Shown here piece after piece: positions 16,167 to 63,399 of a stretch of 64,000 nucleotides of DNA. The notes under the pieces are model-generated. The model was not told the DNA's origin. It did no database searches and was given only the letters and a program-made list of their open reading frames with translations. Position numbers and translations under genes: made by a program. This DNA is from Marinicella meishanensis (GTDB lineage: Bacteria > Pseudomonadota > Gammaproteobacteria > Xanthomonadales > Marinicellaceae). Each line of letters starts with the position of its first letter. The stretch's first letter is position 1. Location: assembly GCF_019931145.1 (NCBI RefSeq), contig NZ_JAIOUV010000001.1:124001-188000 (forward strand). Reading direction: 5' to 3'.

Positions 16167-19100
16167 ATGACCCAATTCTCAAGGAATCAACGCAGCCATA
16201 AAAAACCATCAAACCAGAAATCGCCATTGACAGCGGCCATCGCCATGGCCTTGTCAGTACCCATGGTCAGTGAATCGGCCACCTTTCATGTGAACCAACC
16301 ATTTGACGATGGCACAGGCTTGAGTACCGGCACCCTCAGTTGGGCCATAACTCAGGCCAACACCCAGCCCGGTGCCGATGTCATTGAGCTGCAAACCAGC
16401 ATCACCCTGACCGGTGTCATGAAACGCTTGATTGATTCGGATGTGACCTTGACCAGTGATGGCAACACCCGGTCCATCAACGGGGATGACCAATTCAGAC
16501 CCTTGTTCATCAAGTCAGGCCAAGTCACCATCAATCGTTTGAACCTGATAAACGGCCGGGCAGAAGGTGGTGGCGATGGCGGCCGGGGGGCTGGATTGGG
16601 CGGTGCCTTGTTTGTGTACGACGGTCAAGTGGCCTTAGATCATGTCACGATCCAAAATTCGGTGGCCGTCGGCGGCACCAATGCCCCCGGCCTCAGTTAC
16701 AGTGGCGGTGGCATGTTTGGTGACTCAGGGAATGGCGGGGCAGGAGGCTTGTTTGGCAATGCCTCTGACTCCAACGGCGGTTATGGCGGCTATGGTAATT
16801 ACCAAAACATTGACAGCCAATTTGGCCGTGGTGGTGACTATTCTTACAATGGGCCAGGCCAGCCAGGAGGTTTTGGTGGCGGTGGCGGTGGCAGCTATTT
16901 GGGCAATGCCGGCCATGGTGGTTTTGGCGGCGGCGGTGGCAGTGCTTATTATGGCGTTGCCGGTGACGGTGGTTTTGGAGCCGGTGGTGGCTCCGCGTTC
17001 ACCAATGGAACCCCTGGATTTGGCGGTCAAGGCATTTTCGCTGCAGGTCTAGGTGGTGGGATTTTTGTGCGCAGTGGTCAATTGAGTCTGACCAACGTCA
17101 CCTTGGCCAACAACCACGCGCAACAGCAAGGTGGAGGCGCTGATGGCTTGGGTGGTGGTCTGTTTGTGATGCACACATTGAACAACACCAACGGCAACGA
17201 CCAGGGCATGCCGTCCTCAATGCCCGATGTCACGGGTTGTGGGGTGACATTCACTGCCAATTCAGCGGCCACCGACCCAGCAGCTGCCAACAACAACAAC
17301 GATGTTTTTGACTTGGCTGATCGAATCGCACCTGACAATGGCCTGTCCTTGTCCGACCCTTGTTTGTTTCCTGAGCAAGAAATTGTGATCACTGGCAATG
17401 CCGAAATCATTGCCGATGGCGATGCATCACCCGATCAAGGTGACTTCACTTTGCTGGGCAATGCCCAAATCATGGGAGCCCCATTGAGCCGCACCTTCTC
17501 GATCACCAACATCGGCAACCAAACGCTTGACTTGACTGGCACGCCAAGCATTGAATTGCAAAACAACAACGGCCAATTCAGCATCACCGCACAACCGGCT
17601 TCAAGCTCCTTGAGCACCGGTGAATCGACCACCTTTGAAGTCACGTTCAACCCGTTAACCGCGGGTTATGATGCAGCCACTGTGGTGATCCAGAACAATG
17701 ACAGCGATGAGTCTCCATTTGATTTCATGGTGGCAGCACAAGGCTTTTCGGGCATGCCGCCTTTCACGGTTTCAGAACCCGCAGATGATGGCACCGGACT
17801 GACCGAGAACACTTTGAGCTGGGCCATCGCCCAAGCCAATGCTGTCCCTGGACCCAATGCCATTGAATTGAGCACCGATGTCACATTCACCGGGGTGATG
17901 AAAAGGCTGGTTGATTCAGCGATCAGCATCGGGCCTGACAACAGCCGCAGAACCATTTTTGGGAACTTCCGTTACCGACCCCTGTTCATCAAATCAGGTC
18001 AAGTCGAAATCAATGCTGTCACCATCAGCAATGGCCTGGCCCAAGGTGGCAGCAGTCGAGTGGGCGGATACGGTGCTGGGATGGGCGGCGGATTGTTCAT
18101 TTATGATGGCGAAGTGGATTTGATTGACGTTGAAATCAGCCACTCCACAGCCGTTGGTGGCAACAGAGATCGGTGTATGGATCAAGGCCTTTATTGTCGT
18201 GGCGGTGGCGGCTTGTTCGGTCATGGTTTGTATGGAGGCGGCGGCCTGTTTGGCTCGTCCGCTGCTGGTTTTTTGGGCGGTTATGGAGGTTATGGCCTGT
18301 ACCAAAGCCCTGATCCCATGTTTGGTGAAGGCGGCCAAGCAGCCAACAACTCAGCGGGACAAAACGGTGGGTTCGGTGCCGGTGGCGGCAACGGCGACTA
18401 CAACGCAGGTGGCCACGGCGGTTTCGGGGGCGGTGGCGGCTTCACCTATGATTACAACTGTGCCTCTTATGGTGGCACCTATTGCACCTATTACGCAGGA
18501 GATGGCGGCTTTGGCGGCGGCGGTGGTAAGGCCACCAGTTATGCATCACGCCATGGAACTGCTGGCTTTGGGGGTAACCAACAACTGGCCGCTGGTTTGG
18601 GCGGGGGGCTGTTCATTCGCTCAGGAACCGTCAACTTGCTGGGGGTGACTTTCAGCAACAACGAAGCATTGGACTCCAACAGACCAGGTGTGGCTTCAGA
18701 TGGACTGGGTGGCGCCTTATTTGTGTTGCACACCACCAACAACACCAATGGCAACCAACAAGGCATGCCATCGACTTTATCAACGATCACAGCCTGTGGC
18801 ATTGAGTTTACGGGCAATCAGGCGGCCTCGGACCCTGGAGCCAACAACAACAATGATGACCTGTTCGACCTGGCCAATGTCATCAGCCCCCTCAATGGGG
18901 TTTCGATCAGCGATTTCTGCCCCGGTACCGAGCCAGACATTGAGATCTCCGGCAATGGCATGGTGATTCTGGATGGTGATGTCACACCCAATCCCGATGA
19001 TTTCACCGCCATGGGATCGGCGCAAATCTTGGGTCAGACCATCACCCGCACTTTTGCCATCACCAACACCGGACTGAGCGATTTGAGTTTAACCGGTGTG

Positions 19101-20054
19101 CCAATGGTGGAATTGCAAAACAACACAGGTCAATTCAGCATCACATCGCAACCCCATACCACCGTGATCGAACAAGCCCAAGTGGTGACTTTCACCGTGG
19201 GTTTCAGCCCAAGCAGTTTGGGTGTGGATTCAGCCACGGTGGTGATTCAAAGCGACGATCCGGATGAGTCTCCTTATGAGTTTGTGGTTGCCGCAGAGGG
19301 CATCCCCCAAGCCCCGGTACTGCAAGTTCTGGGTGATGGTGTGGTCATTGAATCCGGTGACCAAAGCCCTTCATCCACCGACAACACCGACTTTGGATTC
19401 ATTGCGGTGAATGGTGGCAGCAAAATCAACCAAACATTTGAACTGAAAAACATCGGCCTGGCACCGTTGAATTTGTCCAACGTTCAATTGTCTCAAACGA
19501 ACAATGATTTCACCTTGTTGCAAAACATCTCTGCCACCACATTGGGGGCCGGCGAATCCACTTTTGTCAAGGTGTCGTTTGAACCCAGTATGGCTGGCAC
19601 CAGCCCACCCACGACTTTCAATGTGTATGACGACGGCATGAATTTTTTGCATGATCATGCGATTGCTGGCTACGGTCAACCCACCATCACCATCAATGCC
19701 CTCAACCCGGTTTGGCAGGAAGGTGAGGACGTTGTTTTTGAATTGACTTTGGATGTGCCTGCCAATGATGTGTTGGACTTCAATTGGTCGGTGAACGGCG
19801 AGGTGAATGGCCAAGACTTCACCAGTGGCTCATTGCCTATGGGCTCAGGGCAAATTGGCGGCCCTTCAATCACCGCGTCCATCTCATTCACATCGCTGCC
19901 AGACGGCATCACTGAGGGGCCCGAACAGTTCACGGTCACGGTCGATACGAGTGATCCGCGCTTGGCTTTGGGGTGGCCAAGTGAGGCCGACGGGGTGATT
20001 GATGACGATCTGATCTTTGCCGATGATTTTGACCCTGACAATCAGGATCTATAG
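16167..20054 (+). CDS. giant secreted Gly-rich beta-helix protein with choice-of-anchor D domains
   Basis: A 1295-residue exported protein with a long signal sequence (TAAIAMALSVPMVSES). Two homologous modules start near residues 37 and 529: an opening 'DDGTGL..TLSWAI.QAN' unit, a VMKRLIDS segment, a PMP-like beta-helix part (RPLFIKSGQV), and a flexible region packed with GGFGGGGG repeats. Each module is followed by a choice-of-anchor D (ASPM/Hydin-like Ig) domain near 405-520 and 925-1040. A third such domain (about 1050-1170) and a Calx-beta-like domain (1175-1285) follow. The protein ends DDLIFADDFDPDNQDL, a tail shared with three other secreted proteins here. AAGGAG precedes the ATG. It is likely a surface or matrix protein, but the ligand is unknown. 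Confidence 0.85.
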   Translation: MTQFSRNQRSHKKPSNQKSPLTAAIAMALSVPMVSESATFHVNQPFDDGTGLSTGTLSWAITQANTQPGADVIELQTSITLTGVMKRLIDSDVTLTSDGNTRSINGDDQFRPLFIKSGQVTINRLNLINGRAEGGGDGGRGAGLGGALFVYDGQVALDHVTIQNSVAVGGTNAPGLSYSGGGMFGDSGNGGAGGLFGNASDSNGGYGGYGNYQNIDSQFGRGGDYSYNGPGQPGGFGGGGGGSYLGNAGHGGFGGGGGSAYYGVAGDGGFGAGGGSAFTNGTPGFGGQGIFAAGLGGGIFVRSGQLSLTNVTLANNHAQQQGGGADGLGGGLFVMHTLNNTNGNDQGMPSSMPDVTGCGVTFTANSAATDPAAANNNNDVFDLADRIAPDNGLSLSDPCLFPEQEIVITGNAEIIADGDASPDQGDFTLLGNAQIMGAPLSRTFSITNIGNQTLDLTGTPSIELQNNNGQFSITAQPASSSLSTGESTTFEVTFNPLTAGYDAATVVIQNNDSDESPFDFMVAAQGFSGMPPFTVSEPADDGTGLTENTLSWAIAQANAVPGPNAIELSTDVTFTGVMKRLVDSAISIGPDNSRRTIFGNFRYRPLFIKSGQVEINAVTISNGLAQGGSSRVGGYGAGMGGGLFIYDGEVDLIDVEISHSTAVGGNRDRCMDQGLYCRGGGGLFGHGLYGGGGLFGSSAAGFLGGYGGYGLYQSPDPMFGEGGQAANNSAGQNGGFGAGGGNGDYNAGGHGGFGGGGGFTYDYNCASYGGTYCTYYAGDGGFGGGGGKATSYASRHGTAGFGGNQQLAAGLGGGLFIRSGTVNLLGVTFSNNEALDSNRPGVASDGLGGALFVLHTTNNTNGNQQGMPSTLSTITACGIEFTGNQAASDPGANNNNDDLFDLANVISPLNGVSISDFCPGTEPDIEISGNGMVILDGDVTPNPDDFTAMGSAQILGQTITRTFAITNTGLSDLSLTGVPMVELQNNTGQFSITSQPHTTVIEQAQVVTFTVGFSPSSLGVDSATVVIQSDDPDESPYEFVVAAEGIPQAPVLQVLGDGVVIESGDQSPSSTDNTDFGFIAVNGGSKINQTFELKNIGLAPLNLSNVQLSQTNNDFTLLQNISATTLGAGESTFVKVSFEPSMAGTSPPTTFNVYDDGMNFLHDHAIAGYGQPTITINALNPVWQEGEDVVFELTLDVPANDVLDFNWSVNGEVNGQDFTSGSLPMGSGQIGGPSITASISFTSLPDGITEGPEQFTVTVDTSDPRLALGWPSEADGVIDDDLIFADDFDPDNQDL

Positions 20055-20275
20055 GCCTGTGCCGCGACTTGAACTGGGGTTTGAAACCGTTCTTTGATGG
20101 AACATTGGGCCAGTTCATTGGCCAGATAGAGCTGGCTGATTGACCAGACCAAGATTGCGAATCGCAGGTGCTTGGCACCCGCAATGGTTGATGGCTGTTC
20201 TGGCGCTTGTGATTTCAGGGCAAAACTGCTTAAATGATGCTGAACTGGGATCATAACCAACCAAGGACTTGTCTC

Positions 20276-21502
20276 ATGCAAAGAACCACATTGAACCGCA
20301 CTTTGGCCAAACATTCATTGGTTGCTGCCATCACCCTGACTTTGACTACCAACCTGTGTCATGCAGCAACTTATCCGGTCACTTCAAGCAATGATGATGG
20401 CACCGGACTCGACCCCAACACCTTGAGTTGGGCCATCCTGCAAGCCAACACCAACCCAGGTCCCGATGCCATTGAATTACAAACTGATGTCACCCTGAGT
20501 GGGGTGATGAAACGCCTGATTGATTCGGATGTGACCATCCACAGTGATGCCACCCGCCGTGCGATTGATGGCTATGAAATGTACCGGCCCTTGTTCATCA
20601 AATCAGGCCAAGTCACCATCCAAGGAATCGATGTCATCAACGGATGGGCTGAGGGTGGCACATCCCGGGCTGGTGGCAGGGGAGCTGGCTTTGGAGGTGC
20701 CCTGTTCATTCATGATGGTCAAGTGACCATGCAAGACGTTTCAATTGAAAACTCTGTGTCCGTTGGCGGCTTTTTTGGTGGCAGTGGATATGGCGGTGGT
20801 GGCCTGTTTGGAGATGGCCATTATGGTGGAGGCGGGGGTTTATTGGGGCACGCCACATTTGTCACCACCGGCTATGGAGGGTATGGCAATTACCAACTGG
20901 ATGACACCACATTTGGCCTGGGTGGTGAATACTCGGCCAAGGGAACTGCTGGCCACGGTGGCTTTGGTGCAGGCGGTGGTGGCAGCTATGATGGCACATC
21001 TGGCGATGGTGGCTTTGGAGGGGGTGCCGGGTACAGCTACTATGGCCCCAATGGGGATGGCGGATTCGGCGGCGGTGGCACATTGAATGGCGGAGTGCCT
21101 GGATTTGGTGCCATTCGCCGTTATGCCGCTGGTTTTGGTGGTGGCTTGTTCATTCGCAGCGGCAGCCTGACTCTGAACAACGTGACTTTTGTGGATAACC
21201 ATGCAAGGCAACAATCCAAAGGCAATTTCAGTTCTGAAGGATATGGGGGAGGCTTGTTTGTGTTGCACACCACCACCAACTCCAATGGGAATCACCAAGG
21301 CATGCCAACCACCTTGCCCACTGTCAATGGCTGCGGTGTGACTTTCACTGGAAACCTGGCCGATTCAGACCCCGGCACCAATAACAACAACGATGATGTG
21401 TTTGATGAGGCCAATCGAATCACCCCCGATGACGGTTTGTCCATCACCAACCCCTGTGGACCACCTGATGATCTGATCTTTGCCGATGGATTCGATCCCT
21501 AA
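20276..21502 (+). CDS. secreted Gly-rich beta-helix protein, paralogue of the upstream gene
   Basis: A 408-residue protein with signal peptide (LVAAITLTLTTNLCHA) and one copy of the module found twice in the upstream gene: NDDGTGLDPNTLSWAI, GVMKRLIDSDVTI, RPLFIKSGQVTI and a GGGGLFGDGHYGGGG-type region. It lacks the anchor D domains and ends PPDDLIFADGFDP, the shared tail. ATG at 20276 with AAGGA nine bases upstream is preferred to an in-frame upstream ATG at 20234. Close similarity indicates a tandem duplication, with domain gain or loss. Confidence 0.85.
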   Translation: MQRTTLNRTLAKHSLVAAITLTLTTNLCHAATYPVTSSNDDGTGLDPNTLSWAILQANTNPGPDAIELQTDVTLSGVMKRLIDSDVTIHSDATRRAIDGYEMYRPLFIKSGQVTIQGIDVINGWAEGGTSRAGGRGAGFGGALFIHDGQVTMQDVSIENSVSVGGFFGGSGYGGGGLFGDGHYGGGGGLLGHATFVTTGYGGYGNYQLDDTTFGLGGEYSAKGTAGHGGFGAGGGGSYDGTSGDGGFGGGAGYSYYGPNGDGGFGGGGTLNGGVPGFGAIRRYAAGFGGGLFIRSGSLTLNNVTFVDNHARQQSKGNFSSEGYGGGLFVLHTTTNSNGNHQGMPTTLPTVNGCGVTFTGNLADSDPGTNNNNDDVFDEANRITPDDGLSITNPCGPPDDLIFADGFDP

Positions 21503-22959: not shown

Positions 22960-25900
22960 TTGATTCAGCTTTTATCACCCCGACTTGTCCATCGATCAAA
23001 CCCACAACGAGTGCTGCTCTTGTTGTTCGGTTTGCTTTCAGTTTGCGCGGCCAAATCCAGTACACGCTTTCATCACTTAACCACCGACTTGGCAGAAAAC
23101 AACATACAGGTGGTGCGCACCATCGCCCAAGATCAAACCGGTATGATTTGGCTGGGTTCGGCTTTTGACGGTTTGTATTACTACGATGGTCACCTGGCCA
23201 GAAAACAGCCTTTAGATCCTGACAAACCTAATTTGGGTGTTTTAAAAATGCGCTCAGATTGGGATCAAAATTTGTGGTTCATCACCGACAGTGAGCACGT
23301 CTACCAACAGCACTCTGGACAATTCATACCCCGTTTCAACAGCCAAGAAGTGGTGGGAGAGACTCGCTGGACAGACATCGGTTTCAAAGACCATGACCAG
23401 TTGATACTGCTCAGCGAACACGCCTTGGTATGGGTGGATTTGAAGGAACAACGCATCCTTAAAACAGCCCACACCAAAGAACATGGTGCGCTGCGCTGGA
23501 TCAAGTCCATCAATCATCAATGGTTCGTGGGCAGCAGTGCGGGATTGTTTATTTTAGAAGAACCAACTGCCATGCTCAAAAGCGTCTTACCAGACACTTG
23601 GCAAGGCCCTGTCAATGACTTGCTGTTACTCAATACTGGGCAACTTATGCTGGCAGCAGATAACGGCACTTGGATGCTGCATGACAGGCAAAAAAATTCA
23701 AGCTCAATAAGCGCCGTACTTACTCACAAATCACTGACCCTGGTGGCTGACCAAATAGGCATGGCTTACATCGGCACATTGCATCAGGGATTGTTTCGAT
23801 TAGACCCACAAACCAAACACTTGACCCAGTTCAAACATGACCCTCATAACAGGAACGCCATCAGTGATCCGCATGTGCTCAGCTCGTTTATTGATCAACA
23901 CAACAACCTCTGGTTAGGCACCTTCAATAATGGGGTGAGTCACAGCCACCTTCCAGCGCAAAAATTTGGTCTGATGGATCGATTTTCCAAGCCATTAAAT
24001 TGCGCCCTAAGTGATGTGGTGATGGGCATACATGCCGACCAGTCAGCACTCTGGCTGGGCACTGAACGAGGCATCATCAAAAGCAATTGGCAAACCGGTG
24101 ACTGCACATTGATCAACCATCAACCGGATGATCCGGACACATTGGTCTTTGATTTTGTTTATGGCATCACACCGATGGATGCCAGAAATTGGTGGGTGCT
24201 GACCGCCAAAGGGGTTAATTTGCTGGACAGCCAAACCCTCAAAATCAATCGCTTGCCAGGTGCTTTACCGCCCATAAACACCTATTTTGCTGCCCCATAC
24301 TCCACTTCCAAAACCTTGTTTGGTACCCGTGATGGGTTGTATCTATTTGATCAAGTACAAGCAACTTCTCATCGCATAAAACTGGGCAAAGCATGGTTAG
24401 ACGGGGTTAAGTTTTACAACCACACGCGTTACCAAAACGAGTGGATTTTTAACACCTCAAATGGCCTATATGTCATGGATCAGCCGACCACATTAAAGCC
24501 ATTGAAGGTGATCAATGATCAACTACCGAATCTGGATGTCACTTCAGTATTAACCCATCTGGACGGTCTTTTTGTGGCGGTCAACAACCATGGTCTGATG
24601 CACTTCAGCAGGCAAGGTGAACTGCTGCAGCACCACAAGTTCACTGACGATCAAAATGACATGGTGACCATATACAGTCAAGAAGTCAAAGGCGATGAAA
24701 TGTGGTTGGGCACCAGTCGTGGGCTGATTCAGCTTAATCCAAAGAACCACAGCCATGTTCTGTTTCAAGAGCCAGATGGCCTGCAAAGTAACTTTTTCTT
24801 GCTGTCTTCATCACACCGACACCTCGATGGTTCACTGATATTTGGTGGTCGCAAAGGCTTGAACCATTTTGTTCCAGAGCAAGTCATGACAAAGCAACAA
24901 CCCCTGCCAGTTGCCCTGACTGCTTTCAAGCTTTTCTCATCGACTGTTCAGCCCGGTAACCAGGTTCACAACTTCACCCTCAACCAGCCAATCAATGAAT
25001 TGCAGGTATTGAATTTGGGGCACCAGGAGTCGGTTTTTGGATTTGAATTCAATGCGTTTGATTACAACCAGTCCAAAAAAATTACTTACGCCCACAGGCT
25101 GGTGGGGTTCGATCCAAAATGGTATGAGGCCGATGCCTACAACAGACAGGTCAGCTACACCAACATCGATCCCGGGGAATATTGGTTTGAAGTCAAAAGC
25201 CAACTGCCCAACCAAGCCACTTTTGGACCGGTGAAATCAATCAAACTCAAGATTCACCCTGCACCCTGGCTGACTTGGTGGGCCAAAACAACTTACGTGG
25301 TGTTGTTCTTTTCTGTTTTGGGATGGTTGGTCCACCGCAAAATCAGCGCCAATGCCAAACTGGCCCAATTACTGCAAACAGAAGTTGATGAAAAAACTCG
25401 AGAATTAAACACTCAAAAAGTGATGGTGGAATCCCTGTTGGCCAAAAAAAACGAATTGTTCTCTCACATTTCTCATGAATTCAGAACGCCATTAACGCTG
25501 ATCCTCGGCCCCATCAATGAATTGATCAACAAATCCGCCAGCCGATCTTCTCTCAGCAGCTTAAAGCTCATCAACAAAAATGCCAACCGATTGCTTTCAT
25601 TGGTTGAACAGCTATTGCAGATTGCCAAAGTTTCTTCCTTCGACAAGGTTCAGTTCCACCAACAAAAAACAGCCGAAGCGGTCATGTCGATCATCGAATC
25701 ATTTCAACATGTGGCTGAAAATAAACACATCTCGTTGATTTTAGAAAATAATGAAGATGCTTTGATTACAGTGACTGATCAATGTCTGGATGCGATATTA
25801 GGCAATTTGGTTTCCAACGCCATCAAATACTCACCTACCCACAGCACCATTAAAGTATCTGCCCTCATTGAAAACAATCAATTCTTACTGCGGGTTAAAG

Positions 25901-26985
25901 ACCAAGGACCTGGCTTATCAAGAGAACAACAGTCTGAAGTATTTAAAATGTTCAATCGATTGGATCAACACGCACAAGTTGATGGGGTCGGCATCGGTTT
26001 GGCAGTGGTGGATGAAATGGTCAAGATCAACCACGGACAAATTCTCATCAACAGTGATTTGGGACATGGTGCAGAATTTTGCATCCAATTTCCATTGAGC
26101 GACGAGCATGAACTGGCGGCCCAACCTTATGCCACTGGCTCATTACTTTCCCAACTGACCAAAGATGCCATAGACCCTGAAATGGCCACAGTGACTGATC
26201 CAAATAACGACCCTTTGGTTTCTGGTAAAGACACCATCCTGGTCATTGAGGACAACCACGACATGAGGCGCTTCATCGTTGGAATTTTGCAAGAGCAATA
26301 CCATTGCCTTGAGGCTGAAAATGGCCAAGTAGGCATTAACCAAGCCACTGAATTCATTCCTGATATGGTGGTTTGTGATGTCATGATGCCTCTCATGGAC
26401 GGCTTTGGAGTCTGTCGAGCCATCAGGTCAGATGAAAAAACCTCACACATTCCATTGTTGTTGTTGACAGCATTGAATGACAAATCCAACCGCATCAAAG
26501 GCTGGCAAGAAAACATCGACAGTTACATGACCAAACCCTTTGATCGAGACGAACTGTTGATCAGGATTGAAAACATCATATCAATCAGAAACATCCTCAA
26601 GAAAAAGGCCTCTATTTTGCTCGATCAAGGACAGGCCAACCGCATAAAACTACCCAAAAAAGATCAAGAGTTTGTCGACAAGCTCAACACCATCATCGAA
26701 GAAAATTTCAGTGATCCGTTATTAAATAGAAGCAAAATGGCATCACAAATGTCAGTCAGTGACCGTCAATTACAACGAAAGCTCAAAGCTTTGATTGACC
26801 AAAACCCCATGGATTATTTGCGGGGATATCGCCTCACCAAAGCCAAAAACTTGTTGGCAGATGGCCTCCAAGTCAGCCAAGTCTCTGACGAATGTGGTTT
26901 CAATTCCCTTTCTTACTTTTCATATTGTTTCAAAGCCCAGTTTAATCAAACTCCCAAACAATACAAACAATCCTTGATTGGGTAG
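22960..26985 (+). CDS. hybrid two-component regulator (propeller sensor, histidine kinase, receiver, AraC HTH)
   Basis: A 1341-residue single-chain two-component system. Residues 1-35 are a signal sequence. About 40-700 are Reg_prop beta-propeller repeats (MIWLGSAFDGLYYYDG, LWLGTFNNGVSH). About 705-775 are a Y_Y_Y domain. A membrane segment follows near 785. HisKA carries HISHEFRTPL with H839, then an ATPase domain (GNLVSNAIKYSP, GVGIGLAVVDEM). The receiver has D1140 in VCDVMMPLMDG and the lysine in MTKPFD. An AraC-type HTH lies at 1235-1335. The start appears to be TTG at 22960; no in-frame ATG precedes residue 97. Such proteins sense periplasmic ligands, often glycans, and activate nearby genes, here a set of small secreted proteins. 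Confidence 0.92.
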   Translation: MIQLLSPRLVHRSNPQRVLLLLFGLLSVCAAKSSTRFHHLTTDLAENNIQVVRTIAQDQTGMIWLGSAFDGLYYYDGHLARKQPLDPDKPNLGVLKMRSDWDQNLWFITDSEHVYQQHSGQFIPRFNSQEVVGETRWTDIGFKDHDQLILLSEHALVWVDLKEQRILKTAHTKEHGALRWIKSINHQWFVGSSAGLFILEEPTAMLKSVLPDTWQGPVNDLLLLNTGQLMLAADNGTWMLHDRQKNSSSISAVLTHKSLTLVADQIGMAYIGTLHQGLFRLDPQTKHLTQFKHDPHNRNAISDPHVLSSFIDQHNNLWLGTFNNGVSHSHLPAQKFGLMDRFSKPLNCALSDVVMGIHADQSALWLGTERGIIKSNWQTGDCTLINHQPDDPDTLVFDFVYGITPMDARNWWVLTAKGVNLLDSQTLKINRLPGALPPINTYFAAPYSTSKTLFGTRDGLYLFDQVQATSHRIKLGKAWLDGVKFYNHTRYQNEWIFNTSNGLYVMDQPTTLKPLKVINDQLPNLDVTSVLTHLDGLFVAVNNHGLMHFSRQGELLQHHKFTDDQNDMVTIYSQEVKGDEMWLGTSRGLIQLNPKNHSHVLFQEPDGLQSNFFLLSSSHRHLDGSLIFGGRKGLNHFVPEQVMTKQQPLPVALTAFKLFSSTVQPGNQVHNFTLNQPINELQVLNLGHQESVFGFEFNAFDYNQSKKITYAHRLVGFDPKWYEADAYNRQVSYTNIDPGEYWFEVKSQLPNQATFGPVKSIKLKIHPAPWLTWWAKTTYVVLFFSVLGWLVHRKISANAKLAQLLQTEVDEKTRELNTQKVMVESLLAKKNELFSHISHEFRTPLTLILGPINELINKSASRSSLSSLKLINKNANRLLSLVEQLLQIAKVSSFDKVQFHQQKTAEAVMSIIESFQHVAENKHISLILENNEDALITVTDQCLDAILGNLVSNAIKYSPTHSTIKVSALIENNQFLLRVKDQGPGLSREQQSEVFKMFNRLDQHAQVDGVGIGLAVVDEMVKINHGQILINSDLGHGAEFCIQFPLSDEHELAAQPYATGSLLSQLTKDAIDPEMATVTDPNNDPLVSGKDTILVIEDNHDMRRFIVGILQEQYHCLEAENGQVGINQATEFIPDMVVCDVMMPLMDGFGVCRAIRSDEKTSHIPLLLLTALNDKSNRIKGWQENIDSYMTKPFDRDELLIRIENIISIRNILKKKASILLDQGQANRIKLPKKDQEFVDKLNTIIEENFSDPLLNRSKMASQMSVSDRQLQRKLKALIDQNPMDYLRGYRLTKAKNLLADGLQVSQVSDECGFNSLSYFSYCFKAQFNQTPKQYKQSLIG

Positions 26986-27583: not shown

Positions 27584-28162
27584 ATGAAATTACGAATCAG
27601 CACTTTATGGCTCATTTTGAGCTTCAATGTCTTCGCTTCAACAATCGAAGATTACCCCATTGCATACCAAGAACAACAACAGCCAGACAGCCGCCAAGAA
27701 ATGATGATTTTTGATACCGGCACAAAACTCAAGCTACATTACAATTTTATCAACCAAGAAACAGGTGAGTTTGTCAATGTCATTTTTGTGACAGACAAAA
27801 AATCACAGCAATACTCTGAAATGGTCATCACCACCAAAGACGGACAACTGATCACCAATGATGGCATCGAGCATTTTTTCAGTCACAGTCTGTATGGTGA
27901 TGAAAAATCAAATGTCTCCAAATCTGGCCTGATTGCTCAGTTTTTCAACAACATGCCTTTGGAAAGTATGAACAACGCTTTGGATGATGCAGGTGTGTTT
28001 AACAAAGGCTACAGCGACAGCGAGTGCACCCTGTTAGCAAATTCCATCAGTTTTCACATGCAACAATATTTTGTGGCCAAGCGCATGGGTAACGATGATG
28101 CTGCCGAGACTCATCGAATTGAAGTGGGATTTTTAATGCATGAGCATTCTCAGAATTGCTGA
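27584..28162 (+). CDS. secreted protein, tandem paralogue A
   Basis: A 192-residue secreted protein with signal MKLRISTLWLILSFNVFA. The C-terminal third holds YSDSECTLL, a helix, then RMGNDDAAETHRIEVGFLM and a C-terminal cysteine (HSQNC at the very end). These features recur in the next gene (YSASECNNL, TSNDDGAIHHAQM, YNSNC), so the two are diverged duplicates and likely share a disulfide linking the two cysteines. AAGGAGA precedes the ATG. No family known to me. Confidence 0.65.
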   Translation: MKLRISTLWLILSFNVFASTIEDYPIAYQEQQQPDSRQEMMIFDTGTKLKLHYNFINQETGEFVNVIFVTDKKSQQYSEMVITTKDGQLITNDGIEHFFSHSLYGDEKSNVSKSGLIAQFFNNMPLESMNNALDDAGVFNKGYSDSECTLLANSISFHMQQYFVAKRMGNDDAAETHRIEVGFLMHEHSQNC

Positions 28163-28229
28163 TCTCATTCATCAATGGGTTGGGACCATGTCTCAACCCT
28201 CTAGATTCAACACATTAAAGAGAATAAAC

Positions 28230-28793
28230 ATGAAAAAAATATTCATCGTCTCATTGGTCATGCTGTCATTCCTGACCCAGGCTAAAGACAACCAAACTGA
28301 CACCAAACACTTCCAAAACAACGCTGTTTCCCGGATTCATCAAGTTCACCATTCCAAAAAGCTCAATGAGTCTTTTGGTGTGATTTATGTGATCAATCAC
28401 AATACCCATGCCAAAAAGACCGCCAGTCTAGAAATCATTGTTTCCACAGACCAAGGTCAACTGATCATTGGTGAAAATCGCAGTTTAATCATGGGCGCAA
28501 ATAATGACCCTGAATTCATCAACAAGAACTTGAGCGACGATGCTTTGGAAGCTTTGTTTTTCAGTGATCCCATATTTGATCAATTCATTGAGCAATATGC
28601 TGTGGATCTAGATTCACAATTGGAGTTATTAAAAAACTACAGCGCAAGTGAATGCAATAACTTGGAATCTGCCATCAATCAAGTGTTTGCCGCTTACATG
28701 CATTTGCGAAGGACCAGCAATGATGATGGCGCCATTCATCACGCTCAAATGGTTCTCACAGGATTGGTTATGGAATATAACAGCAACTGCTGA
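28230..28793 (+). CDS. secreted protein, tandem paralogue B
   Basis: A 187-residue protein with signal MKKIFIVSLVMLSFLTQA. It resembles the preceding gene in the centre (IIVSTDQGQLIIGENRS against VITTKDGQLITNDGI) and in the last 60 residues (SASEC, NDDGAIHHAQMVLTGLVME, terminal NSNC). ATG at 28230 follows AAAGAGA; an in-frame upstream ATG overlaps the previous gene and is unlikely. Function is unknown. A terminator-like hairpin follows. Confidence 0.65.
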   Translation: MKKIFIVSLVMLSFLTQAKDNQTDTKHFQNNAVSRIHQVHHSKKLNESFGVIYVINHNTHAKKTASLEIIVSTDQGQLIIGENRSLIMGANNDPEFINKNLSDDALEALFFSDPIFDQFIEQYAVDLDSQLELLKNYSASECNNLESAINQVFAAYMHLRRTSNDDGAIHHAQMVLTGLVMEYNSNC

Positions 28794-49389: not shown

Positions 49390-50979
49390 TCACTCGAAAT
49401 CATCGGCAAAGATCAAATCGACAAAGGGTTGCACATCGACTTGCCACACCTGCTCAAATGTCGGCAGGGTGCCATGTTGGCTGGGATCAACCACCGCAGA
49501 ATTGTCTTTGACTTCGACCTTCACTTCCACCATGCCGACAGAGACCGGCGTGTACTGAAAGGTTTGGTTGATTGAAGAAGAGTTGGTGCTGCCTTGGCTG
49601 ACACCGCCTACCCGCCAGGTGACTTGTAAGTCGTGGGTCGGTTGTAAGGTTTGGATGGCGAAATTGATCGGCATCGACACCGTGGCTGTTGGGTTGGGGT
49701 TGGCCGGTATCGGCGAATCCGGTTCAATCAAACTCAACAAGCCGCCATTGGCATAAGGCACCGCATACAGGCGTTCCACATAAGCCTCCTGACACACCTC
49801 ACAAAAGCCAAAACCCAAAAACTGCATGTTGCAGGCATTCTTCGGTCGGTACATGCCTGAGGACAGGTACCGGGCCCCTTCAAACAAGCCCACATCTGAG
49901 TCGAACTGTGCGGTTTCTGGCGTGGGCACCGGGGTGGCCCCATCGATCAGGTAATTCCACTTGATGTTGTTGCGCACCGTGACATCGGTGACATTGGCTT
50001 CACACGGGGAGGTCCCTGAAATGTCGCTGCAGGGTGGAAAACCTGGAAAAGGGGTGTCGTATTCGTCGGCCAAACCGGTGAAACTGTGACCGTATTCATG
50101 GATGAAAATGTCGTCGGCCAAACTGTTGGTGGAAAAGGTGGAAATGAAACCACCTGCGCCGCCGTATTCACTGTCGTTGACGATCACGGCAATTTGGTCC
50201 CAATCCGGACTGGCCGCCGCCGCGGTCAACACCTTGGAGCTGTTGATGGTCAACAAGCGCTGGATGTTGCTGGTACAAAAAGTGGCATCAAATGCAGTGT
50301 TGACCGACGAAGCGGGATTGAAACAGGGCGCCGGTTTGTCGGCACCTGATTGGCTGCTGGCGGTGAACAAGCGGTCAAAACTGACAAAGCTGGCATAGTT
50401 TTGATACGGCACGAAGGTCAGCATGTAGGTGATCACCGAATTGACGTCGTTGTTGAAGGCGCTTTCTTGGCCACTGGTGTAGCCATCACCCATGAACAGC
50501 AAATTGACCCGATTGTCGGTACCGCCATTGGGGCTCTCGAGGTACACCTGAGGGCCTTTGTGTTGGGCTTCACGAACCAACTGTTGGAAATCAAAATCGG
50601 CTTGATCCCCGGCCAAACTGGTTGGTAATTGTAAGCGGTCTACTTGGCCTTGCGCAGCCCGCACCACAAAAGCAAATTCTTCATTGACCAGAACCTCACC
50701 GTCGATGTGGTCATGGCCATGGAACTCGGCCCGGGTGATCAAGGCTTGTGACAAGGACACTTCACCGACCGCTTTACCCTGGGCATCCAGCAACAGCACA
50801 TTGGCATGTTGCGGATGGAGCGTGGGGTCAAACTGACGCGGTGGCAAATCCACAATCTGGTGATAATCAGAAACCAGGCCATCAGCCGCGGACCAGCGCA
50901 ACACCAAGTAATCGGTCGGCTCAGACCAGACCGCCGTTGAACTCAAAATCGCCGCGATTGCGCACCACATACGTTTCAT
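49390..50979 (-). CDS. M64 family metallopeptidase, secreted
   Basis: A 529-residue secreted peptidase with signal MKRMWCAIAAILSSTAVW. The M64 domain carries VNLLFMGDGYTSGQESAF and the zinc site HEYGHSFTGLADEY (about residues 294-298, third ligand downstream), with cysteine-rich regions (NACNMQF, FCEVCQEAYVERLY). A C-terminal Ig-like domain of about 100 residues ends FVDLIFADDFE, the same tail as two beta-helix proteins. AAGGAG stands 6 bases before ATG 50979. M64 includes IgA-cleaving peptidases, but the target here is unknown. Confidence 0.9.
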   Translation of the reverse strand: MKRMWCAIAAILSSTAVWSEPTDYLVLRWSAADGLVSDYHQIVDLPPRQFDPTLHPQHANVLLLDAQGKAVGEVSLSQALITRAEFHGHDHIDGEVLVNEEFAFVVRAAQGQVDRLQLPTSLAGDQADFDFQQLVREAQHKGPQVYLESPNGGTDNRVNLLFMGDGYTSGQESAFNNDVNSVITYMLTFVPYQNYASFVSFDRLFTASSQSGADKPAPCFNPASSVNTAFDATFCTSNIQRLLTINSSKVLTAAAASPDWDQIAVIVNDSEYGGAGGFISTFSTNSLADDIFIHEYGHSFTGLADEYDTPFPGFPPCSDISGTSPCEANVTDVTVRNNIKWNYLIDGATPVPTPETAQFDSDVGLFEGARYLSSGMYRPKNACNMQFLGFGFCEVCQEAYVERLYAVPYANGGLLSLIEPDSPIPANPNPTATVSMPINFAIQTLQPTHDLQVTWRVGGVSQGSTNSSSINQTFQYTPVSVGMVEVKVEVKDNSAVVDPSQHGTLPTFEQVWQVDVQPFVDLIFADDFE

Positions 50980-51166
50980 CAGACACTCCTTTTGGTATGG
51001 ATTGATTGGCCTGAATGGCTGCCCAGGGTAGACCAGCCTATTCAAGTATTAAAGATTATACCGCAGCCCAAAACAGCCCCACAATCTCCTTGAACTTTAT
51101 TTGCACCAGAGATGATGCATTTGTTTACAATCGGCCACCCTTGACTGTGTTAATCTGAAGTCACTG

Positions 51167-61815: not shown

Positions 61816-63399
61816 TCACTCAAAATCGGCATCAAAGATGAAGTTGCCATACATGTCATGCCATTGATCGGTTGACGGGTCATAGCTTTGACCGTCCCTG
61901 ATGGCTGCGCCCCAAACCACCACGCGTTCTCCGGTCCAAACCGCAGACAGGCCTTGCGAGGGCGGCGGTGCGTTGTCAGCCGCAACGGCATGCCAGGAAT
62001 TGTTGTTGGGGTTGAACAGGCTGCCATCAGACATCAGTTGACCATCACCAACACCACCCCACAAAAACAGCTCGCTGCCAGTCCAAGTGTGGGCCGCCGC
62101 ATAGCGGCCGGACAATGCCTGGTCCTGACTGGTGCTGATCCAGGCATCATGAGACGCCACATAGATCCCACCGGTATCAATGCCGGTGGTGCTGGACAAG
62201 CGACCACCCCAGACCACCATGAAAGACCCGGTCCAGACCATGTGGGGATATGCGTGGCCAGCAGGCGCATTGACTCCGGTGATGGCCGTCCATTGATCCA
62301 AATCAGGCTTGTATCTGGCATTTCCACCGCCCCAAAGTAGCATCTCAGAGCCGGTCCAAATGGCCGCATGTCCCGCATTGGGAGTGGGCGCATTGAGGAG
62401 GCTCAGGTCGCGCCATTGGTTGCTGCTGGGATCATAAGCCTGCCCATCGCCTTGGCCAGAAGGCAGGTACCCACCCCAAATGATCATTTCTGTTCCCGAC
62501 CAAACCGCGGTGTGTAAATACCTGGGCTCAGAAATTCCGCTGGCAGTGGCTTGCCACATACCGGTTGTCGGGTTGTACCTGCCACCGCTGTTGAGTTCAC
62601 CATGGACGAAATCATTCAAGCCGCCCCAAACAATCATTTCCTGCCCGGTCCAAACAGCTGAGTGTTGAAAACGACCTTCTGGCGCATTGGCCGATGAGGT
62701 GAACTGCCATTGATCCAACACCGGATCATACAGGGCCCCAGACCGCAACGCATACTGGTCAAAAAAATCCTGCCAATAGCCCCCCCAGATGATCATGTGG
62801 TTTCCATCCCAAATGGTGGTGTGTCGCGTCCTTGGGCTTGGAATCCTGGGGGCTGGCAAAGTTGAGCCCTGCTGGATTGGGTGTCTTTGCAATTGGCGCC
62901 AGTCAAGCCCCAATAAAGCGTCGGGATCACCCACAGCCGAGAAGTGTTGTGCCACCAAGGCTGGCCGCACCAAACACGCCAAGATTTGTTGCTCGTCGTG
63001 TCCCAATGCCGCCATGTATTGTTGCAAGCGTTTGGGCATCTGACTGGCAGCTTGGATCCGCTGCCATTCTGCTTGCACCACTGCCGCACTGAAGTACCAG
63101 GATTTCTGCTGCTGCAAATACACTTCTTGTTTGAGGTTTCGCAGCACCGCTGCCCTGATTTGGGCGGCACTGGCAGTGGGATTGTGCGTGGGTTTTGGAT
63201 GCCGGTTGTGTGCTGGCCAGTGCTGAAAAGACCACCGCAAATCAACCAGTTTTTGCTCACACACAAGGCGAGATTGTAAATAAGAATCCGGGTCTTTCAA
63301 GCCCCAAGACGTTTGCTGCAAATTGGCGACAGCCCCTGTGGCACCCAACAACAACATGCATGCCATCAACAACCGTTTGCAACGAAAATTTCCTATCAT
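61816..63399 (-). CDS. secreted kelch-repeat protein with shared C-terminal tail
   Basis: A 527-residue protein with signal peptide (RLLMACMLLLGATGAVANLQ). A helical N-terminal region (30-190) is followed by about seven kelch-type repeats, each with 'WTGxEMIxWGG' (for example AVWTGQEMIVWGGLN and AIWTGSEMLLWGG) and a YDPSSNQW strand, forming a beta-propeller. The end MYGNFIFDADFE resembles the LIFADDFE tail of the M64 peptidase and beta-helix proteins. Likely secreted; ligand or enzymatic activity is unknown. Confidence 0.85.
   Translation of the reverse strand: MIGNFRCKRLLMACMLLLGATGAVANLQQTSWGLKDPDSYLQSRLVCEQKLVDLRWSFQHWPAHNRHPKPTHNPTASAAQIRAAVLRNLKQEVYLQQQKSWYFSAAVVQAEWQRIQAASQMPKRLQQYMAALGHDEQQILACLVRPALVAQHFSAVGDPDALLGLDWRQLQRHPIQQGSTLPAPRIPSPRTRHTTIWDGNHMIIWGGYWQDFFDQYALRSGALYDPVLDQWQFTSSANAPEGRFQHSAVWTGQEMIVWGGLNDFVHGELNSGGRYNPTTGMWQATASGISEPRYLHTAVWSGTEMIIWGGYLPSGQGDGQAYDPSSNQWRDLSLLNAPTPNAGHAAIWTGSEMLLWGGGNARYKPDLDQWTAITGVNAPAGHAYPHMVWTGSFMVVWGGRLSSTTGIDTGGIYVASHDAWISTSQDQALSGRYAAAHTWTGSELFLWGGVGDGQLMSDGSLFNPNNNSWHAVAADNAPPPSQGLSAVWTGERVVVWGAAIRDGQSYDPSTDQWHDMYGNFIFDADFE

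Follow-up and report, generated by a model that had tools for sequence, protein, structure and literature searches.

Dozens of exported proteins of unrelated fold in Marinicella meishanensis and its relatives share one nine-residue C-terminal end. We conclude that this tail is a real C-terminal sorting signal of the Lysobacterales, undescribed as far as the open-licence literature shows. At a probability of about 0.58, we read it as a linear signal at the C-terminus that directs proteins to a second type II secretion system (T2SS) of this order, one of PDZ type. What we observe is a tightly conserved tail that sits on exported proteins of differing fold and co-occurs with the second T2SS; secretion by that system, the role as a signal and the identity of the recognising component are inferred. 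The link to the T2SS is an association only; co-lost genes were not screened and other candidate machines remain untested. How T2SS choose folded substrates is an open question, and a tag paired with one of two T2SS makes that question testable. If the reading is correct, secreted proteins could be listed from sequence across much of a bacterial order, and many exported proteins without known function would gain a lead.

The tail in the analysed window

The window, meaning the whole 64-kb stretch of M. meishanensis DNA that was analysed, encodes four proteins that a first-pass annotation had described as secreted and alike at their C-termini. All four C-termini are present in the sequence (Table 1), and each protein has an N-terminal signal peptide by a simple heuristic. 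The claim of a shared tail stands for three of the four. Scored with a profile trained on 39 tails from outside the window, these three reach 30.6-32.2 bits, and none of 14,100 random internal windows attains 15 bits or more. The end of the kelch protein is only a weak match; we call it degenerate or doubtful because of its score of 2.0 bits (36 of the 14,100 random windows reach 1.6). The remaining secreted proteins of the window had been said to lack the tail, and indeed none of 17 other signal-peptide genes carries it.

Table 1. Exported proteins of the window with their C-terminal ends, and copies of the Gly-rich domain
Feature	Position	Strand	Details
1295-aa protein, ORF	16167-20054	+	ends ...DDLIFADDFDPDNQDL
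Tail DLIFADDFD of the 1295-aa protein	20007..20033	+	then PDNQDL, stop 20052-20054; 31.1 bits
Neighbouring protein, ORF from the earlier start 20234 (422 aa)	20234-21502	+	ends ...PPDDLIFADGFDP
Neighbouring protein, 408 aa from the later start	20276..21502	+	exported; one Gly-rich domain
Tail DLIFADGFD of the 408-aa protein	21470..21496	+	then P and stop; 30.6 bits
M64 peptidase, ORF	49390-51045	-	ends ...FVDLIFADDFE
M64 peptidase, exported	49390..50979	-	Pfam PF09471, 9.7e-40
Tail DLIFADDFE of the M64 peptidase	49393..49419	-	stop immediately after; 32.2 bits
Kelch protein, ORF	61816-63399	-	ends ...GNFIFDADFE
Kelch-repeat protein, exported	61816..63357	-	kelch assignment and signal-peptide heuristic
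Degenerate tail NFIFDADFE of the kelch protein	61819..61845	-	profile score only 2.0
Gly-rich domain, first copy	16203-17387		in the 1295-aa protein
Gly-rich domain, second copy	17763-18926		in the 1295-aa protein
Gly-rich domain, third copy	20276-21499		in the 408-aa protein

The exported 1295-residue protein contains two Gly-rich domains and a choice-of-anchor D domain, followed by the tail. Neither Gly-rich copy inside it has a tail, which occurs only at the protein end. The three copies of this domain, distributed over two proteins, are 57-59% identical. The 408-residue neighbour has no Pfam or NCBIfam match, and its structure model is poor (mean pLDDT 50, last block 25) and uninformative on the tail.

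Two other features of the window may be recorded here. A 1341-residue signal-peptide protein (22960-26985) has an end that by eye resembles an AraC-type DNA-binding domain, and is perhaps a hybrid sensor-regulator. Two adjacent exported proteins of about 190 residues (27584-28162 and 28140-28793) both end in NC, without the tail.

Abundance and consensus

Across the M. meishanensis genome, FADxF[DE] is encoded 27 times and the reversed-pattern control not once. Distinct genes that stop 6-12 residues past the motif start account for 22 of the 27 matches, and five sit elsewhere within reading frames. The expression FxDxF[DE]-stop is found 30 times, against 2 for the control.

Genes were called with a simple codon-usage caller in 40 genome stretches plus the window (859 kb, 733 genes), and the addition of two T2SS loci brought the sample to 773 genes. 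A nine-column profile of the C-terminal residues recovers tails across these called genes: 58 of the 773 carry one, where random internal windows would give 0.36. Together with the 27-to-0 genome count, this shows the motif in excess at protein ends over background, and it rules out a chance origin. The profile was trained on 42 regular-expression tails from the same gene set, and the other 16 of the 58 are new. Of the 40 stretches, 28 had been selected for tail matches. The other 12 were picked independently of tails, and there 6 of 212 genes bear one; extrapolated, this would mean tail genes on the order of a hundred per genome.

The consensus is D-[LVI]-I-F-x-[DN]-x-F-[ED], or about DLIFADDFE. 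A stop usually comes directly next (38 of 54 tails counted), with 1-7 extra residues in the other 16. The motif closes with E or D in 54 of 56 tail proteins, these 56 being the genes that score at least 9 with the profile and are not cut off.

Conservation of a peptide on unrelated proteins

At the DNA level, of 50 tail-coding 21-mers 49 differ. Codon positions 1 and 2 have a pairwise identity of 0.80 and position 3 one of 0.44; the 60 bases on each side fall to 0.25-0.28, near background. The differing 21-mers and the weak conservation of third positions and flanks show that selection is on the peptide, and conservation belongs to the peptide rather than to its DNA. The differing 21-mers and the background-level flanks also rule out that the tail spread as a DNA element.

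The carriers were thought to be unrelated in fold, and the 56 tail proteins do fall into 39 BLAST families once their last 25 residues are removed. Identity between families is 63% within the nine residues and drops to 6.5% over the 20 residues just upstream; columns preceding the first D stay close to background. The window's four proteins include two paralogues, which could suggest that the tail is left over from a single duplicated domain. Against this, and against chance, stand the 58 tails where 0.36 are expected, the 39 families that cannot be aligned upstream, and the position of the tail at the end of the protein and not at the end of a shared domain. The objection that the tails are alignable remnants does not apply; we consider such a remnant ruled out and give next to no weight to either explanation.

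Proteins that bear the tail

An enrichment among signal-peptide proteins, which the first-pass annotation had proposed as a check, is evident: signal peptides are called in 41 of 56 tail genes and in 236 of 683 others (Fisher p 3e-8). The heuristic over-predicts, and some of the 15 uncalled tail genes may reflect uncertain starts. Two or more further membrane segments occur in none of the 56 tail genes, compared with 92 of the 683 others.

Domain scans covered 57 proteins, the 56 tail proteins and the kelch protein, and the statements that follow refer to the best 25 of 50 and 25 of 56 families. The matches listed include peptidases (M64, M14, S8, M6- and M36-type), endonuclease I, lactonase-type propellers, FG-GAP, lamin-tail and choice-of-anchor D, I, J and Q. 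Among the best 25 of 50 families, NCBIfam choice-of-anchor Q matches 7 of the 57 proteins and choice-of-anchor D, J and I one each, and M36 models named rhombosortase-, myxosortase- and T9SS-dependent match 4, 4 and 1. Such choice-of-anchor or sortase/T9SS-dependent names presumably imply that relatives elsewhere end in known sorting signals. On that naming logic, kinds of protein that bear known sorting signals elsewhere end here in the nine-residue tail.

Comparison with known C-terminal signals

The tail had been judged not to be a named signal, and none of the established sorting-tag models fits the four window proteins: there is no CTERM model among their NCBIfam (E up to 1) or Pfam (E up to 0.1) matches. 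The C-termini also show neither the hydrophobic helix nor the basic cluster that mark the PEP-CTERM, GlyGly-CTERM, MYXO-CTERM and LPXTG class, which agrees with the earlier remark that membrane segment and basic tail are missing; the tail is acidic and nine residues long. In open-licence PubMed Central, the only literature searched, we found no description of the tail or of a linear T2SS signal in this order.

The T9SS C-terminal signal directs exported folded proteins across the outer membrane; it is a folded domain of tens of residues and belongs to a different machine, in Bacteroidota. It resembles the present tail as a C-terminal signal on exported proteins, and one NCBIfam M36 model is named for T9SS. 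The difference is that conservation here is limited to nine residues, and the 6.5% identity over the preceding 20 residues does not fit a T9SS-type folded C-terminal domain. PEP-CTERM/exosortase (EpsH) is similar in that a short C-terminal motif is found on many unrelated signal-peptide proteins, but its Pro-Glu-Pro motif, membrane helix and basic cluster have no counterpart in our tail. According to the available part of the PEP-CTERM paper, the partner was identified through patchy distribution and phylogenetic profiling (PMC1569441), and as far as that part goes the logic of discovery is the same as ours. The GlyGly-CTERM of the rhombosortase system is likewise a C-terminal tag, and an NCBIfam M36 model bears its name. 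It differs in having a glycine motif, a hydrophobic region and basic residues, with processing by an intramembrane protease, in so far as excerpts describe it; there is no such region here. What PEP-CTERM, GlyGly-CTERM and T9SS share with the present case is a tag on exported proteins of unrelated fold that is paired with a machine.

GlyGly-CTERM proteins pass the T2SS in Vibrio cholerae, on the evidence of the part of the source at hand (PMC12369372). The second T2SS might export the tail proteins for other reasons, and the tail might be a tag for surface retention or attachment after secretion, much as GlyGly-CTERM proteins stay retained once they have passed the T2SS. The family names do point to anchor-type signals on relatives, and the extracellular proteases of Wenzhouxiangella AB-CW3 were inferred by their authors, in the excerpted text, to stay at the outer membrane (PMC7691419). 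The motif itself, with no membrane segment, basic cluster or conserved cysteine, speaks against retention, though a processing enzyme lay outside the search, and we hold this explanation to be quite unlikely.

Distribution across genomes

We surveyed 398 genomes of the order Lysobacterales with the pattern F-x-D-x-F-E-stop. The pattern is frequent in f1, the family of M. meishanensis, and in f3, f4, f5 and f11; in parts of f7, f8 and f9; and in genera g15, g25, g54 and g64 of f12 and g48, g72 and g97 of f2. Nearly all other f2 and f12 genomes have 0-1 matches. In other orders of Gammaproteobacteria, each of 364 genomes has at most four matches, and the eight loci examined from these were short or unrelated ORFs. 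The tag is abundant in parts of the Lysobacterales and near zero elsewhere in the class.

Among the matches listed, C-terminal ones come from Marinicella pacifica, M. marina, Dokdonella fugitiva, Tahibacter soli, Pseudofulvimonas gallinarii, Chiayiivirga flava and other Lysobacterales, together with chance matches in unrelated taxa. Also among the matches listed are genuine-looking tails in metagenome-assembled genomes labelled outside the order, as Sedimenticola (L246), Alcanivoracaceae (L248) and Oceanospirillales (L285). It is unresolved whether these records carry wrong names or the range is wider than one order.

A second type II secretion system

A model of the T2SS secretin finds two GspD genes over the cut-off in 22 of 23 chosen tail-rich genomes, and the remaining one (G114) has fragments of two secretins. 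Of 23 chosen tail-free genomes, 3 have two GspD genes, 18 have one and 2 have none. Tail-rich genomes combine a classical E-F-G-H-I-J-K-L-M-N-D operon with a second row, gspC-D-E, which gspF adjoins or lies near in many genomes. The two kinds of secretin are well separated: with the second GspD of M. meishanensis as query, scores over 20 loci run from 431 to 1238 bits for the second secretins and do not exceed 148 for the classical ones. All 9 tail-rich genomes tested have a second gspG, canonical at 180-188 bits, away from the classical operon. In M. meishanensis four pseudopilin-like genes follow it in a row, named by their order and prepilin-like starts without a family model, and relatives of at least two of the four stand beside gspG in all eight other genomes.

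The core of a T2SS is present in the form of the C-D-E-F row, GspD and GspG over the cut-off, and a GspC that matches OutC/PulC structures. The GspC profile matches OutC 6hcg (1.7e-37), PulC 5hj1 and the GspC PDZ structure 2i4s. Profiles of the homology region (HR) and of the PDZ domain match the second-system GspC in 20 of 20 loci, 16 of which had been used for training; in 34 classical T2SS loci they match nothing. GspE and GspF of the second system were assigned by BLAST to M. meishanensis genes named by order, and GspL and GspM were not recognised in the only two loci read.

Co-occurrence of the tail and the second system

The first-pass annotation had suggested looking for a protease or translocon that co-occurs with the tail, and the second T2SS is such a translocon. 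Its secretin is found in 88 of 95 genomes with at least three tails and in 40 of 303 with fewer (Fisher p 1e-47, ignoring kinship); genomes with it have 8.1 tails on average, those without 0.34. These counts come from a second-secretin profile run on the 398 Lysobacterales genomes, in which 128 have the secretin, 116 of them at 800 bits or more. Twelve of the 128 are fragments assigned by score density (G172 from its genome row alone), and six genomes at 624-713 bits were counted as lacking it. Fewer than three tails occur in 40 of the 128, among which 29 belong to f9 and 12 have none by pattern. Family f9 retains the second system with few tails, some of type F-x-D-R-F-E.

Seven tail-rich genomes have no second secretin. 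Two of these (G048, G177) carry a second GspG, so the gap is probably one of assembly, and two others (G059, G208) are only 77% and 73% complete. The last three, all of f8, have neither a second GspD nor a second GspG. In each of G147 and G171, one of the three matches looks like a genuine tail. G097, at 98% completeness, has four genuine-looking tails (L360, L369, L378, L382) and is a true exception, for which relics after loss of the system, or another reader, are candidates. G122 and G132, like G147 and G171, have a single genuine-looking tail without second GspD or GspG. In the family of M. meishanensis itself, one genome (G019) lacks GspD, GspG and tails alike. Other T2SS copies (G061, G075, G229) occur without genuine tails.

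In two genomes, G334 (L396) and G256 (L397), a relative of the second system is confined to one locus, where secretin and GspG lie no more than about 5 kb apart. No genuine tails were found in them, and this T2SS is probably a differently arranged or transferred copy.

Kinship was taken into account with a tree of classical T2SS proteins from 34 genomes, on which tails change five times and the second secretin four times. Independent pairs on well-supported branches agree three times and never oppose; once, tails were lost and the secretin kept. A sign test on such pairs cannot reach 0.05. Corrected for kinship, the evidence is consistent but rests on few cases.

Such numbers leave room for another, unidentified machine that reads the tail and disappeared from those lineages that lost the second T2SS: there are only about three well-supported independent co-losses, an unbiased screen of gene content is lacking, and tails persist in a few genomes that have no second T2SS. 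We regard this as unlikely, though the most serious of the alternatives, as the second T2SS belongs to a class that exports folded proteins and nearly all tail-rich genomes possess it, and the four window proteins match no sortase-type signal.

Proposed mechanism

The proposal that the tail marks substrates for a secretion or attachment machinery is supported by its C-terminal place, the signal peptides, the variety of folds, the lack of a membrane segment and of a match to a named signal, and the co-occurring T2SS. This support extends to sorting and not to cleavage of the tail; that it is needed for secretion is inferred. Under the targeting reading, the N-terminal signal peptide would take tail proteins across the inner membrane, and folding in the periplasm would leave the tail exposed. 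It would be bound there by the second T2SS through a periplasmic part, GspC with its HR and PDZ domains or the N-domains of GspD being most likely, and the bound protein would then be moved to the cell surface or the medium.

PDZ domains commonly bind C-termini. In the sections available of the papers concerned, the PDZ domain of EpsC is needed for VesB and that of OutC for some substrates (PMC12369372), a pectate lyase loop meets both GspC and GspD (PMC7949064), and substrates are assumed to bind the corresponding GspC region of XpsC (PMC11981180). Given C-terminus binding by PDZ domains and these contacts of substrates with GspC and GspD, reading of the tail by GspC/GspD is the most economical model. 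The second-system GspC resembles PDZ-type GspC proteins (OutC, PulC, EpsC) in that its profile matches GspC structures, OutC and PulC among them. The features recognised by T2SS of that type are structural or loop-based (PMC12369372, PMC7949064), whereas here a linear tail co-occurs with the system. In Vibrio VesB the PDZ-dependent information lies in an Ig-like fold and not in a tail, as the excerpt reports (PMC12369372), and no universal linear T2SS signal is known from the parts of two sources that were available (PMC12369372, PMC7949064). It is an even bet, in our estimate, that the tail is the first linear, portable T2SS signal, in which nine C-terminal residues on any fold address one of two co-resident machines and are read by GspC/GspD.

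Direct binding of the tail by the PDZ domain is disfavoured by the acidic end, the extra residues and the PDZ scores. PDZ ligands have a free hydrophobic C-terminal residue, and an end in E or D is unusual; the tail lacks this feature, for E or D comes last in the motif in 54 of 56 tails and 16 of 54 continue for 1-7 residues. Over 59 GspC genes, the number of tails correlates with PDZ bits (rho 0.49) and more strongly with HR bits (0.59); many tail-rich genomes were in the training set, and GspC was not found for G139 and G153. Divergence of the PDZ domain as an explanation of tail-poor genomes is unsupported, PDZ bits tracking tails no better than HR bits.

PDZ proteases also read C-termini, and a hydrophobic-acidic C-terminal peptide on exported proteins might serve as a quality-control or stability tag for a periplasmic protease of this kind. 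Such proteases are widespread, whereas the tag is patchy within one order and tracks the T2SS, and we consider this explanation improbable.

Genes around the second-system loci

In M. meishanensis, a tail gene lies 3 kb behind the second-system gspF on the same strand. There are nine tail genes in 382 kb near second gspCDEF loci, four of them in a single locus (L144), and two in 180 kb at the gspG loci. None occurs in 334 kb around classical loci of tail-rich genomes or in 446 kb of loci from tail-negative genomes, and the same expression finds two in 240 kb of unselected M. meishanensis DNA. We rate proximity as weak support, with nine genes in 382 kb and four of these from one locus.

At the second-system locus of M. 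meishanensis (L143:14091-17263, C9), genes that by eye resemble an ABC ATPase, a permease and a regulator, and one more, stand behind gspCDEF. On the opposite strand, about 4.5 kb before gspC, is a pseudopilin-like gene with an FTLIE start (L143:3550-4074). Parts of the row behind gspF recur in f1, f2, f5, f8, f9 and f12.
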